Below, piece after piece: positions 42,245 to 46,194 of a DNA stretch of 64,000 nucleotides; within the stretch, counting starts at the first letter, position 1; each line of letters opens with the position of its first letter. Source of the stretch: Klenkia soli (GTDB lineage: Bacteria > Actinomycetota > Actinomycetes > Mycobacteriales > Geodermatophilaceae); assembly GCF_900103975.1 (NCBI RefSeq), contig NZ_FNIR01000007.1, positions 186,001-250,000 of the forward strand, in the 5' to 3' direction. The notes beneath the pieces were generated by a model. That model was not told the origin of the DNA. It searched no databases and saw only the letters and a list, made by a program, of their open reading frames with translations. The position numbers and the translations under genes are program-made.

Positions 42245-43227
42245 CGGCCGGTCCGCACGACGTCGGCCGGCGCCGCTGCCCGCACGGCGTCGGCCAGCGC
42301 CGCGAGGTCCCGGTCGCCGTGGTGCTGGCGCAGGTAGACCTCCAGGTCGGCACGGCGGGCGGCATGGGCGCCGTCGTGCGCGGCGGGGCCGGCGCCCAGG
42401 GCGCGGCCCGTGGTGGCCAGCACCTCGAGCCCGGTGCGGACGGCCAGCCCGCGGACCCGGTGCGCCCGGGTGGCGGCGACCCCGGCGGCGTCGAGCGGGT
42501 CGGCGTCCACCTCGGCGGCCGCCACGGCCAGCGCGGCGTCCACGGCGTGCAGGGCGACGTCGACCGCTCCCCAGGCGGCGTCGCGGTAGGGGTCGGGGCC
42601 GGCCGCCACGGCCTCGGCCAGCGCGGCGGCGACCCCGTGGGCCCCGCCGGCCCAGACGGCGGCGACGCCGATGCCGCCGTGCCAGAAGCCGGGGCGGTCC
42701 AGGTACGCGCGCGGGCCGCCGACCGCGGTGGCGGGGACGTCGCACAGCTCGACGTCCACGGTGTCGCTGCCGGCCATCCCTGCGGCGCGCCAGCTGCCGG
42801 GTCGGGGGACGACCCCCGGGGCGGACAGGTCGACGAGGAAGAGCCGGCGGCCGTCCTCGGCGTGCGCGGTGACCAGCGCCGAGGTGCACGCCCGGGCACC
42901 GGAGCACCAGCGCTTGGTCCCGGTCAGCCGCCAGCCGCCGACCGACCGTGCCACGACCCGGCCGTCCGGTGGCTCGGCGGCCCACACCCCCAGCCGCTCG
43001 CCCGGGCCGGGGACCGGGCCGTCCAGCTCGGCCAGGACCGCCACGGCGTCGGCGTGGCCCTCGGCCAGCCGGGCCAGGGGCAGGTCCTGGGCGCCCAGGG
43101 CGGACAACCCGGACCAGCGGCGGGCCGTGTCACCGCCCCCGGGGAGCGGGAGGGACCAGCCGTCGTCGACCAGGTCGGCGAAGGCGGCAGCGGTGCGGGT
43201 GACCTCGGCGGTCCAGCGGTCGGTCAC
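42241..43227 (-). CDS. Acyl-CoA dehydrogenase-like flavoprotein (short form)
   Basis: A 328-residue acyl-CoA dehydrogenase-family protein, shorter than the usual 380-400. The N-terminal helical domain is reduced, while the central beta domain with GTKRWCSGARACTSALV and the C-terminal helical bundle are kept. I could not identify the catalytic glutamate with confidence, so its chemistry may differ from acyl-CoA oxidation. It is the first gene of the operon; GTG 43227 has a GAGG element upstream. Similar genes occur with PIG-L, NodS-like and GT2 genes in other bacteria as far as I recall, but I cannot check here. Confidence 0.82.
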   Translation of the reverse strand: MTDRWTAEVTRTAAAFADLVDDGWSLPLPGGGDTARRWSGLSALGAQDLPLARLAEGHADAVAVLAELDGPVPGPGERLGVWAAEPPDGRVVARSVGGWRLTGTKRWCSGARACTSALVTAHAEDGRRLFLVDLSAPGVVPRPGSWRAAGMAGSDTVDVELCDVPATAVGGPRAYLDRPGFWHGGIGVAAVWAGGAHGVAAALAEAVAAGPDPYRDAAWGAVDVALHAVDAALAVAAAEVDADPLDAAGVAATRAHRVRGLAVRTGLEVLATTGRALGAGPAAHDGAHAARRADLEVYLRQHHGDRDLAALADAVRAAAPADVVRTGR

Positions 43228-43348
43228 CCGGGTCCTCTACCCGTGCCCGGCGGGGTCCCAACCCGGATGTGTAGCGCGACGACCGCTGCGGTAGGACTCC
43301 CCCGGGACCGCCGACCGGCGGTCGCACGACGAGCTTGATGGAGGAATC

Positions 43349-43600
43349 GTGGCGTTCGACGACGACGACATGACCAGCACCGAGGGTCCCGCCGACAGCG
43401 GTGCCGGTGAGGGCACCCCGGGCCAGCACGACGGCGGTGCCGACGGCGGCGCCGAGGGCCCCGCGGACAGCGGTGCCGGTTCGGGTACCCCCGGCCAGCA
43501 CGACGGCGGTGCCGACGGCGGCGCCGAGGGCCCCGCGGACAGCGGCGCCGGCGAGGGCACCCCGGGCCAGAGCGACGGCGGCGCGGACGGGTCGGCCTGA
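43349..43600 (+). CDS. Small acidic Gly/Asp-rich protein made of three 24-residue repeats
   Basis: Not a family I recognise. The 83-residue product has an 11-residue head, MAFDDDDMTST, then three near-identical 24-residue units (residues 12-35, 36-59, 60-83). Each unit begins EGPADSGAG and contains GTPGQ-H/S-DGGADG. No hydrophobic segment, signal peptide or Cys is present. The GTG at 43349 has a clear GGAGG site 4 nt upstream, so it is translated. A 16-bp-stem hairpin follows 17 bp after the stop, and then a JmjC-type cupin oxygenase gene. Head plus repeated units beside a peptide-modifying oxygenase resembles a multi-core ribosomal peptide precursor; this is inference. Confidence 0.72.
   Translation: MAFDDDDMTSTEGPADSGAGEGTPGQHDGGADGGAEGPADSGAGSGTPGQHDGGADGGAEGPADSGAGEGTPGQSDGGADGSA
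43382..43597. repeat. Three 72-bp tandem repeats encoding the 24-residue units
   Basis: Units at 43382-43453, 43454-43525 and 43526-43597 are nearly identical at the DNA level, with a few synonymous changes plus E/S, H/S and G/S substitutions. This indicates recent duplication or strong homogenisation. Confidence 0.9.
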
Positions 43601-43616
43601 CGCCGACCCCGACCAC

Positions 43617-43654
43617 GCAGGGCCGGGCGGAGGAAGCTCTCCGCCCGGCCCTGC
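43617..43654 (+). terminator. Strong hairpin between the repeat peptide and the cupin gene (attenuator candidate)
   Basis: A perfect 16-bp stem (left arm GCAGGGCCGGGCGGAG) closes a 6-nt loop GAAGCT. It begins 17 bp after the small gene's stop and ends 15 bp before the GTG at 43669. It could partially terminate transcription, giving much more peptide mRNA than enzyme mRNA. Confidence 0.75.
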
Positions 43655-43668
43655 GGCGCTGCATCGGC

Positions 43669-44907
43669 GTGGACCCGGAGGTCTTCGCCGCGGCGTACTG
43701 GTCGCGCCGACCCCTCCTGACCAGCGCTGCCGAGCTGGGGCAGGACTTCTCCGACCTGCTCACCCTGGCCGACGTCGACGACCTGCTCTCCGTCCGCGGC
43801 CTGCGCACCCCGTTCCTGCGGATCGCCAAGGACGGCGCCGTCGTCGACCCCAAGCGCTTCACCGGCTCCGGCGGCGCCGGCGCCGAGGTGGCCGACCAGG
43901 TGTCCTCGGACTCCGTGCTCCGGCTGTTCAGCGAGGGCTCCACCGTCGTGCTGCAGGGCCTGCACCGGCTGTGGCCGCCGCTCATCGCCTTCGCCGACGC
44001 CCTGGCCGCCGACCTCGGCCACCCCACCCAGGTCAACGCCTACATCACCCCGCCGTCCTCGCGCGGGTTCTCCCCGCACTACGACGTCCACGACGTGTTC
44101 GTGCTGCAGGTGGCCGGCGAGAAGCACTGGACGATCCACGAGCCGGTGCTCACCGACCCGCTGCGCACCCAGCCGTGGGGCGACCGGGCCGACGCCGTCG
44201 CCGAGCGCGCCGCGCAGACCCCGGTCGTCGACGCCGTGCTCCGGCCCGGCGACGCCCTCTACCTGCCGCGCGGCTACCTGCACTCGGCGGTGGCGCTGGG
44301 CGAGATCAGCGCCCACCTGACCATCGGCGTGCACAACGTGACCCGGTGGGGCGCCGTCGAGTCCGCGCTCGACCTCGTCCGCACCCTGGCCACCGACGAC
44401 CCCGCCCTGCGCGCATCGCTGCCGCTGGGGGTCGACCTCTCGGCACCGGGCACGACCGCCGACGACGTCGCCGCCGTCCTGGCCGGGCTGCACGCGGCCC
44501 TGGACCGGGTCGACCCGGCCGCGGTGGCCGACCGGCTGAGGTCACGCACCTGGGCCCAGGTCCGCCCCGAGCCGGTGGCCCCCCTCGCGCAGTCGGCCGC
44601 CGCGGCCGCCCTCACCGCCGACACCGTGCTCCGCCTGCGGCCCCGGCTGCGGGTGCAGCTCCGCGACGCCGTCGGCGACGAGGTCGTGCTCGTGACCGGC
44701 CGCCAGCACCGCACGTTCCCGGCCGCCCAGCGGCCGGCCCTGGCCGGGTTGCTGGCCGCCGGCGAGCTGAAGGTCGGCGACCTGCCCGGTCTCCCGGCCG
44801 ACGAGCAGCACGAGCTGGCCCGGCGACTGGTGGTGGAGTCGGTGGCGGTGGTCCCGGACGCGCGAGCTGTGCACCATGGAGGGGATGAGCGCGGAACAGG
44901 TGCCTGA
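43669..44907 (+). CDS. JmjC-type cupin 2-oxoglutarate oxygenase
   Basis: A Fe(II)/2-oxoglutarate oxygenase of the cupin-like/JmjC family, whose known members hydroxylate residues in proteins such as ribosomal proteins. The iron triad is H137-x-D139 (FSPHYDVHDVFVLQVAGEKHW) and H205 (LPRGYLHSAVAL), numbered from GTG 43669. A C-terminal winged-helix-like region follows. The frame stays open back to CTG 43597, whose first bases overlap the preceding stop (CTGA). The 24 extra residues end in PALRRCIG, which looks like part of the conserved N-terminus, so the real start may be that CTG. The target could be the neighbouring repeat peptide. Confidence 0.85.
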   Translation: MDPEVFAAAYWSRRPLLTSAAELGQDFSDLLTLADVDDLLSVRGLRTPFLRIAKDGAVVDPKRFTGSGGAGAEVADQVSSDSVLRLFSEGSTVVLQGLHRLWPPLIAFADALAADLGHPTQVNAYITPPSSRGFSPHYDVHDVFVLQVAGEKHWTIHEPVLTDPLRTQPWGDRADAVAERAAQTPVVDAVLRPGDALYLPRGYLHSAVALGEISAHLTIGVHNVTRWGAVESALDLVRTLATDDPALRASLPLGVDLSAPGTTADDVAAVLAGLHAALDRVDPAAVADRLRSRTWAQVRPEPVAPLAQSAAAAALTADTVLRLRPRLRVQLRDAVGDEVVLVTGRQHRTFPAAQRPALAGLLAAGELKVGDLPGLPADEQHELARRLVVESVAVVPDARAVHHGGDERGTGA

Positions 44908-45838
44908 CGCGGCACCGGCAGACCCCTACTGCCAGGACGCCGACCCGCGCACCTACCCGGCGGGCCGGCTGGACGAGGGCCGGTGCTCGGTGCAGGCGCT
45001 GGTCGCCGGCGACTCCCCGATCGCGACGGCTCCCCCGGCCCGACGCTGGTTGCTGGTCGAGCAGCCCGGGCCGTGGGGCCGCGACGCGTTGCTGCAGTCC
45101 CGGTTCGACGCCGAGGTCGCCCCCCGGCTGGCCGAGCGCGCCCGCGCGGCGGGGCTGCGGATCCAGATGGTCCGTCGCCCCGGCGAGCGGTTGTCGGACT
45201 CCCGCGGGCGGTGGGCCGTGGCCGACGTGCACGCCCCGTGGGTCCGCTGGTCCACCCGCGACCAGGACGCCGACCTGCTCGACGTCCCCCTGGACGGGTC
45301 GGTCGGCATCGAGTCCGACGCCCCGACCTTCCTGGTCTGCACCCACGGCGGGCACGACGCCTGCTGCGCGGTCCGCGGCCGGCCGCTGGCCCGCACCCTG
45401 GCCGGGGACGTCTGGGAGACCAGCCACCTGGGCGGCGACCGGTTCGCCGCCAACGTGCTCGTGCTGCCCACCGGCCACCTCTACGGCCAGGTGCCCGAGG
45501 ACGGCGGCGGGCTGGTCGAGGCGCACGGCCGCGGCGAGGTGCTGCTGCCCGGCCTGCGCGGCCGGGCCGGGCTGACCCCGCCGGCGCAGGCCGCCCAGCA
45601 GTTCGCCCGGGTCGAGCTGGGTCTGGTCGGGGTGGCCGACCTCCCGGTCACCGGGGCGCGGGCCGACGAGGCCGCCCCGGACGGTTCGCAGCGCTGGACG
45701 GTGACGCTGACCGGACCGGTCGGCGAGGTCCGGGTCGTGCTGGACAGCCGGCTGTCCGGCGAGGCCCGGCAGCTCACCTGCGCCGCGCTGCGACCGGGCC
45801 GGTTCCGGACCTGGCACCCGGTCTCGGTGACCTCCTAG
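44876..45838 (+). CDS. Sucrase/ferredoxin-like family protein
   Basis: A 320-residue protein of the sucrase/ferredoxin-like family, which has a thioredoxin-like [2Fe-2S] ferredoxin fold. The signature lies at about 150-205: FLVCTHGGHDACCAVRGRPLA and VWETSHLGGDRFAANVLVLP, followed by GHLYGQV. These Cys and His residues are the likely cluster ligands. A second conserved Cys occurs near the C-terminus (LTCAALRPGRF). It overlaps the cupin gene by 32 bp (or 23 bp if ATG 44885 is used), so it is co-expressed and could supply electrons to the oxygenase system. It converges on the ferredoxin-like gene with overlapping stops. Confidence 0.85.
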   Translation: MEGMSAEQVPDAAPADPYCQDADPRTYPAGRLDEGRCSVQALVAGDSPIATAPPARRWLLVEQPGPWGRDALLQSRFDAEVAPRLAERARAAGLRIQMVRRPGERLSDSRGRWAVADVHAPWVRWSTRDQDADLLDVPLDGSVGIESDAPTFLVCTHGGHDACCAVRGRPLARTLAGDVWETSHLGGDRFAANVLVLPTGHLYGQVPEDGGGLVEAHGRGEVLLPGLRGRAGLTPPAQAAQQFARVELGLVGVADLPVTGARADEAAPDGSQRWTVTLTGPVGEVRVVLDSRLSGEARQLTCAALRPGRFRTWHPVSVTS

Positions 45839-46194
45839 AGCTCGGCCTCGGCCCGCACCCGGCGGGACGGCGAGAAGATCTGCAGGTCCAGGAAGTCCGG
45901 TGGCTCGGCGATGCCCGGGCCGCCGTCGGCGACCCAGCGCAGCACGTCGGCCGTCGTCTCCTCGTCGAGGACCCCACCCAGCCAGACGGGCCGGGCGCCC
46001 GCGGCGCGGCCGGCCGGGCTGGGGCTGACCACGACGACGTTGGACCGCTCGCACGCGTCCAGGCAGTCGACCACCCGCACCCGCGCGGTGCCGCGCTGGA
46101 GGGCGGTCAGCTGGGCGCGGTGGTCGGTCCCGGGGTGCTTCTCCACCCGGCCGCAGCAGCAGCCGCGGCACACCGTCAGGGTCGGGCCGCTCAC
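45835..46194 (-). CDS. Thioredoxin-like [2Fe-2S] ferredoxin domain protein
   Basis: A 119-residue protein. Cys 9, 12, 13 and 14 lie in VCRGCCCGRVEKHPGTDH, and Cys 44 and 48 in VVDCLDACERSNVVVV, the ligand spacing of thioredoxin-like [2Fe-2S] ferredoxins, which use four of them. GTG 46194 overlaps the stop of the phosphodiesterase gene upstream (GTGA), so it belongs to that minus-strand unit. It ends head-on with the sucrase/ferredoxin-like gene (4-bp CTAG overlap). Partner unknown. Confidence 0.82.
   Translation of the reverse strand: MSGPTLTVCRGCCCGRVEKHPGTDHRAQLTALQRGTARVRVVDCLDACERSNVVVVSPSPAGRAAGARPVWLGGVLDEETTADVLRWVADGGPGIAEPPDFLDLQIFSPSRRVRAEAEL

Follow-up and report, generated by a model that had tools for sequence, protein, structure and literature searches.

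Why should a gene for a small peptide built of near-identical units stand directly in front of a gene for a JmjC-type oxygenase? The question is raised by a locus at positions 43349 to 45838 of a 64,000-nucleotide (nt) stretch of the Klenkia soli genome (contig NZ_FNIR01000007.1, positions 186,001 to 250,000, assembly GCF_900103975.1; called the window below and numbered from its first letter). Here a repeat peptide gene is followed by a gene of the PF08007 family of 2-oxoglutarate (2OG) oxygenases and by a sucrase/ferredoxin-like (Suc_Fer) gene, all on the forward (+) strand, as are the other features described unless said otherwise. The gene order is conserved in many related actinobacteria. 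As the repeat peptide gene directly precedes a gene for an enzyme of a type known to hydroxylate side chains of proteins, we infer that the JmjC protein modifies the repeats, and with modest confidence we favour the reading that the peptide is a dedicated substrate of the enzyme, in a repeat-core pair resembling those of ribosomally synthesized and post-translationally modified peptides (RiPPs), with beta-hydroxylation of aspartate as the most likely reaction. This preference is drawn from sequence comparison.

Pairing of the repeat peptide with a JmjC oxygenase

The peptide gene (43349..43600) starts with GTG behind a GGAGGA ribosome binding site read from the sequence (43340..43345) and encodes 83 amino acids (aa), among them 13 aspartates and two histidines. 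A head of 11 residues, MAFDDDDMTST (43349..43381), which might act as a leader, is followed by three core units of 24 aa (72 nt) each with the consensus EGPADSGAGxGTPGQxDGGADGxA (43382..43597). All of these elements had been described in an earlier sequence-only reading of the stretch and are present as claimed; the variation in repeat number for which that reading suggested a search is found within the genus Klenkia itself, where peptides of two, three and four units occur. Codon differences between the units of the window peptide are largely synonymous (synonymous to nonsynonymous 4:1, 7:2 and 7:3), and the corresponding ratio between the window peptide and its K. marina copy is only 4:3. 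Neither the window peptide nor any of ten divergent peptides has a match above the cut-off in Pfam or NCBIfam, the L157 peptide giving a sub-threshold match (E 0.34) to 'Ribosomally synthesized peptide in Bacteroidetes' in this search. The literature searched gave no confirmation of 'BatC' as an annotation name for such small proteins.

A peptide-based search found the peptide in 39 of 60 genomes, its own included, and the JmjC gene adjoins it in 28 of 30 peptide-found loci; in the two others (L021 and L023) the peptide lies at a contig end. Since this first set had been picked by the peptide, loci were re-collected by the enzyme alone. The enzyme-collected set comprises 80 named loci, which ranked highest among at least 569 relatives, and 59 regions from class-wide and phylum-wide searches; a sixtieth region (L150), which came from the peptide search, was excluded, and the 60 regions were picked by hand from the match lists, so that the sample is not random. 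There are 126 unique clade members, and the 116 with at least 500 nt of upstream DNA form the basis of the pairing count. A small, aspartate-rich open reading frame (ORF) lies upstream by a fixed rule in 113 of these 116 loci. On inspection the ORF is farther upstream in the first of the remaining three (L071) and short in the second (L147), and the third locus is partly masked, with the head and first unit still visible. Conserved pairing of the repeat peptide with the cupin gene, the check proposed by the sequence-only reading, is thus observed, and the contrary finding, orthologous cupin genes with no such ORF beside them, did not turn up. A count over 137 loci includes the peptide-found ones, and the 116 enzyme-collected loci give the fair figure. 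Applied to 219 other genes, taken from the named loci only, the rule fires in six, four of which are the C-terminus of the JmjC protein itself; upstream of ten more distant JmjC proteins it finds no such ORF.

The same association is seen at the level of genomes. The JmjC clade (above 340 bits) is present in 39 of 246 genomes of the class, and a peptide profile built from eight rows matches 24 of the 246, all of them among the 39 and none among the 207 others. In all 15 clade genomes missed by this profile, direct reading reveals an aspartate-rich small ORF upstream of the JmjC gene, one of them being doubtful (L144, genome G126).

Named hosts include Geodermatophilus, Blastococcus, Modestobacter, Kribbella, Actinokineospora, Micromonospora, Paractinoplanes, Cellulomonas, Curtobacterium, Herbiconiux, Saccharopolyspora, Actinomycetospora and Motilibacter. 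Beyond the Geodermatophilaceae a common unit is GEGPADGGANPGGHDGGADGSA, preceded by a head like MSINDDDITT. Twelve outlying loci, of which three belong to the class (L146, L148 and L164) and nine do not, have a DxD-like core instead of the ADGG type (for example, DADAVDGDALDAVDGDASDADAV in L155), and acidic heads precede these cores as well (LSDEDINTV in L157). Median peptide length across 134 loci is 90 aa, and a regular expression for the acidic head, which is shared by both core types, matches 107 of these peptides; the non-matching heads are due partly to misplaced starts and partly to true absence (L131 and L133, for instance). A strong Shine-Dalgarno sequence precedes the chosen start in 124 of the 134 loci, a count made with a start picker that favours such sites and still misplaces a few starts. 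Aspartate is conserved throughout: every one of the 134 cores contains aspartate, glycine and alanine, and the number of aspartates in a core ranges from about 5 to 30. In cores of the ADGG type 85% of the aspartates are followed by glycine and the commonest spacing between aspartates is 4; in the DxD type it is mostly 2-3. At two loci (L054, 1339-1854, and L065, 2958-3527) the JmjC match is preceded by a second ORF, which contains a stretch rich in aspartate and glycine and ends some 430-470 nt before it.

The JmjC enzyme and its probable target

The JmjC gene (43597..44907) matches PF08007 at E 1e-26, a family match shared by all 48 aligned clade members. The iron-binding triad is formed by the HxD motif, His-Tyr-Asp in the window (44077..44085), and a distal histidine (44281..44283); the histidine and aspartate of the motif are invariant in alignments of 18 and of 48 rows, as is the distal histidine in the alignments. 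The oxygenase with an intact triad that the sequence-only reading had recognized is therefore confirmed. The K. marina protein is 89% identical to that of the window. A search of the genome from which the window comes found only this one PF08007 gene, and a search for plasmid carriage gave no match to the JmjC protein. Its nearest relatives in the PDB are NO66 and MINA. Residues 8-398 of the clade profile align to residues 38-447 of the NO66 chain (E 5e-34, 121 bits), an alignment which, at the level of sequence, takes in the C-terminal dimerisation and winged-helix regions; the match to YcfD is far weaker, with 38 bits along some 95 residues.

A tree of 70 enzyme rows unites the 47 whose partners are of the ADGG type, L144 being counted among them, in a single clade with support (93/91) that narrowly misses the tool's star, and places the DxD-core enzymes around it, so that core type corresponds broadly to enzyme lineage; the labels of L146 and L164, wrong by the score rule, were corrected by hand. 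The sequence-only reading had named, as an outcome that would speak against it, a tight grouping of the cupin with ribosomal hydroxylases found without a peptide. The answer to this is partial: NO66 and MINA are the nearest PDB relatives, and the tree, whose rows are without NO66, MINA and YcfD, puts nine of ten peptide-free actinobacterial JmjC proteins beyond a weakly supported branch (37/87) and the tenth (L149), a long branch of uncertain position, on the peptide side.

In the mechanism that we propose, the JmjC oxygenase would have the peptide as its dedicated substrate. A recognition segment would probably be provided by the acidic head, perhaps bound by the C-terminal winged helix of the enzyme, and the aspartate-rich units would be repeated cores, in which the enzyme would add one hydroxyl at the beta carbon of the repeated aspartates. 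The Suc_Fer protein would probably supply electrons, for example by re-reducing the JmjC iron, and the start codon and hairpin at the junction of the two genes (next section) would hold the enzyme low relative to the peptide. With no recurrent peptidase or transporter next to the operon, retention of the product in the cell, or its exit through unlinked machinery, is more likely; our guess is that the product might be a polyhydroxyaspartate metal-binding peptide. The layout of precursor plus enzyme suggested by the sequence-only reading is upheld, and in our best reading it works like a multi-core RiPP pair. We do not file it as a RiPP, since the modification is only inferred and no linked peptidase or exporter was seen.

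Several points weigh against the proposed mechanism. L144 passes the composition rule and has no clear repeats, and the acidic head is missing from several peptides (for example, those of L126, L130, L131, L133 and L134). At 13 of the 134 junctions the two genes share no in-frame NTGA overlap and the peptide stop is followed by no ATG, GTG or TTG. Apart from the JmjC and Suc_Fer clusters, no neighbouring cluster is present in more than five of 30 loci surveyed, so that a linked protease or exporter is not seen. The choice of target residue is weak because a composition of aspartate, glycine and alanine is of low complexity, and a ribosomal substrate is possible because the closest solved relatives hydroxylate ribosomal proteins and the genome search found a single PF08007 gene.

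With regard to the target residue, the same pair might act on the histidine of an xHDGG motif in the manner of NO66 and MINA, the aspartates being merely compositional. Both of these nearest solved relatives are histidyl hydroxylases, histidine occurs in 110 of the 134 cores, and the residue before DGGADG is histidine in 170 of the 328 cases where it is not alanine. However, S, Q, G and T also occur at this position, and 24 of the 134 cores, among them 9 of the 12 DxD-type cores, contain no histidine at all. Histidine, which the sequence-only reading had listed beside aspartate, does not hold as a general target, and we regard this alternative as rather unlikely.

It is also conceivable that the JmjC protein is a ribosomal oxygenase which modifies a ribosomal protein and that the peptide is its partner, inhibitor or regulator. 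The nearly end-to-end alignment of the family profile with NO66 and the single PF08007 gene would suit such an enzyme, but the near-strict pairing and the way in which core type broadly tracks the enzyme tree would not, and presence in 39 of 246 class genomes is oddly patchy for a ribosome modifier; we consider this explanation unlikely.

The junction between the two genes

The JmjC gene probably starts at a CTG that overlaps the TGA stop of the peptide gene (CTGA, 43597..43600). The JmjC frame meets the peptide stop as NTGA in 84 of 134 loci (61 CTGA, 12 GTGA, 8 TTGA and 3 ATGA), against an expectation of one third from frame alone and with related loci not being independent. In 42 CTGA loci, the window included, the stretch from the peptide stop to the conserved ALRRC core of the enzyme contains no ATG, GTG or TTG, for which reason CTG 43597 is the probable start; close homologues also align in frame across the hairpin described below, back to this codon. 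A uniform rule of overlap is contradicted by 47 loci with another frame relation, to which the 13 junctions without any usual start after the stop belong. As a start codon, GTG 43669 is unlikely, given that the ALRRC core upstream of it is conserved; it is further disfavoured by 23 loci of other lineages, in which the overlap at this place begins with GTG, TTG or ATG. In three loci of the same genus (L003, L004 and L008) the conserved JmjC core starts 165-169 nt past the peptide stop; an in-frame GTG first occurs 79 nt (L003 and L004) or 147 nt (L008) beyond that stop, and L004 has a different hairpin in this stretch of the junction.

A perfect hairpin with a stem of 17 base pairs (bp) and a loop of 6 nt (43616..43655) begins 15 nt after the peptide stop. 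The sequence-only reading had reported a perfect hairpin here, and the hairpin is indeed present, with a stem of 17 rather than 16 bp and an offset of 15 rather than 17 nt. Since CTG 43597 is the probable start, the hairpin is located inside the probable 5' end of the JmjC gene. The proposal of a leaky terminator between the peptide and enzyme genes finds no support: the stem lies in the 5' coding region, within the probable JmjC frame, and is followed by no T-run, and a scan of 43000-46000 revealed no terminator-like site. A search of Rfam with the stem returned only sub-threshold microRNA matches.

The hairpin covaries in an alignment of 36 of the 39 reference loci, from which L013, whose junction is built differently, L025 and L055 were omitted. 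Its covariation score is 0.197 against 0.087 in shuffles (reached in 0 of 500), versions slid along the alignment giving at most 0.062, and cells with two-sided changes number 21 against 4.0 in shuffles. One pair, which occurs as GC, CG, AU, UA and GU, is kept in all 36 sequences. Of the five measures two are weak: pairs changed on both sides number 3 against 2.0 in shuffles, a value that 94 of 500 shuffles reach, and further pair types number 11 against 8.7, a value that 20 of 500 reach. The 75-nt stretch around the window hairpin folds with z = -6.7, and z is below -2 in 93 of 121 junctions across the clade, 13 of the 134 having been excluded for length. We suppose that the hairpin lowers expression of the enzyme relative to that of the peptide, through transcription or translation.

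The arrangement of a repeat ORF directly before a covarying hairpin and an overlapping weak start might also be expected of an attenuation leader, in which the speed of the ribosome over aspartate, glycine and alanine codons would control the hairpin and JmjC expression. However, median peptide length is 90 aa, the changes from unit to unit in the window are mostly synonymous, outlying members keep aspartate-rich cores of different make-up and there is no T-run, which together leave this explanation very unlikely.

Upstream of the peptide gene, a conserved block, GATGTGTAG ... GGTAGGACT (43266..43298), is recognizable by eye in most of the aligned Geodermatophilaceae; it might serve as a promoter, and the sigma-70 consensus was not found at this block. 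It is followed by an inverted repeat, GACCGCCG-AC-CGGCGGTC (43306..43323, no strand assigned), which could be an operator or a hairpin in the 5' untranslated region, and which in the Geodermatophilaceae lies about 43 nt ahead of the peptide start. In the 52 nt searched upstream, the best inverted repeat has at least 7 of 8 pairs in 46 of 57 loci; the mean is 7.2 pairs, compared with 6.3 for mononucleotide shuffles, and individual positions show several types of pair. It is possible that this repeat is an operator.

The ferredoxin-like gene, related systems and significance

The third gene (44876..45838) matches PF06999 at E 3e-16, overlaps the JmjC stop and encodes a Suc_Fer-like protein, that is, a thioredoxin-like ferredoxin, as the sequence-only reading had stated. 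It is the only member of the PF06999 family found by a search of its own genome. A Suc_Fer-like gene on the same strand lies downstream in 96 of 116 loci, the DxD group included, this total covering loci with a match or with enough DNA, and 21 further loci being too short. The 20 loci without the gene downstream include 12 of named Micromonosporaceae. The neighbourhood survey of 30 loci placed the JmjC cluster in 29 and the Suc_Fer cluster in 17, and the later search with a Suc_Fer profile was the more sensitive. A C-X8-C motif is present in 108 of 108 Suc_Fer rows, which were not deduplicated, and in place of H-X3-H these rows contain H-X3-D (93) or H-X3-C (15). The thioredoxin-like ferredoxins Apd1 and Aim32 share the Suc_Fer family and the C-X8-C motif, and yeast Aim32 differs in having H-X3-H as ligands of its cluster (PMC8482512).

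A peptide that is simply an unmodified, disordered acidic protein, such as a metal or solute buffer, sharing the operon by chance, would agree with its composition and with the lack of a recurring peptidase or transporter, but is highly improbable given that the JmjC clade is present in each of the 24 genomes that the peptide profile matches and that the peptide was not seen apart from the JmjC gene.

NO66 (RIOX1) and MINA53 (RIOX2) are not known to be encoded beside a repeat peptide. The present enzymes share with them the JmjC domain and the HxD...H triad, together with a C-terminal region that aligns to NO66; they differ in that the targets of NO66 and MINA53, studied in eukaryotes, are histidines of RPL8 and RPL27a (PMC6006756). 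YcfD/RoxA, the L16 arginyl hydroxylase, is likewise bacterial and of PF08007-type fold, but it matches the clade more weakly (38 bits) and acts on L16 (PMC6006756). PbsQ and BpmG are cupin-like, JmjC-related oxygenases that hydroxylate ornithine in ribosomal precursor peptides of biphenomycin-type RiPP pathways (PMC12257519); theirs is one tailoring step among those of a multinuclear non-heme iron-dependent oxidative enzyme (MNIO), an arginase, a B12-dependent radical S-adenosylmethionine enzyme (B12-rSAM) and a protease, and the precursor has an FRF motif. Bregman et al. 2025 describe folds like the RiPP recognition element (RRE) fused to PF08007 in eukaryotes, with bacterial homologues in RiPP-like contexts, and the section on these proteins (section 6) names no repeat peptide, aspartate core or ferredoxin partner (PMC12710340). 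Those bacterial homologues may or may not include the present clade, and because this section remarks on PF08007 in RiPP-like contexts, the novelty of the general idea is lowered (PMC12710340). None of four repeat strings is printed in the open-licence full-text literature searched, no description of the peptide/JmjC pair was found in the titles and abstract starts of the open-licence literature searched, and the available part of PMC4295552 contains nothing bearing on the pair.

Four more distant JmjC genes (L163, L165, L166 and L167) adjoin a different, precursor-like peptide of 35-38 residues, which ends in DSDGTDSSSDFI in L163, L166 and L167 and in DNDGTDSSSDFI in L165. These loci are a candidate second JmjC peptide system. 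Upstream of them lies what may be part of a prolyl-oligopeptidase-like ORF.

For the family, the pairing of peptide and JmjC genes offers a candidate substrate, encoded next door, for an orphan bacterial branch of the human NO66/MINA family, and the proposed chemistry is directly testable. If the proposal is true, the genes would form a widespread peptide modification system that is unnamed in the curated family libraries searched. A broader reading, which we hold to be possible and put forward only tentatively, is that of an unnamed three-gene system found throughout the phylum Actinomycetota, in which an NO66-like oxygenase would have a tandem-repeat, aspartate-rich peptide as its native substrate and, helped by a ferredoxin with unusual ligands, would convert it into a polyhydroxyaspartate peptide; peptide tailoring would then be an old, perhaps ancestral, job of the family, which is known for hydroxylating human ribosomes. 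The proposal, if true, suggests that the tailoring of peptides and ribosomal hydroxylation are linked in evolution.

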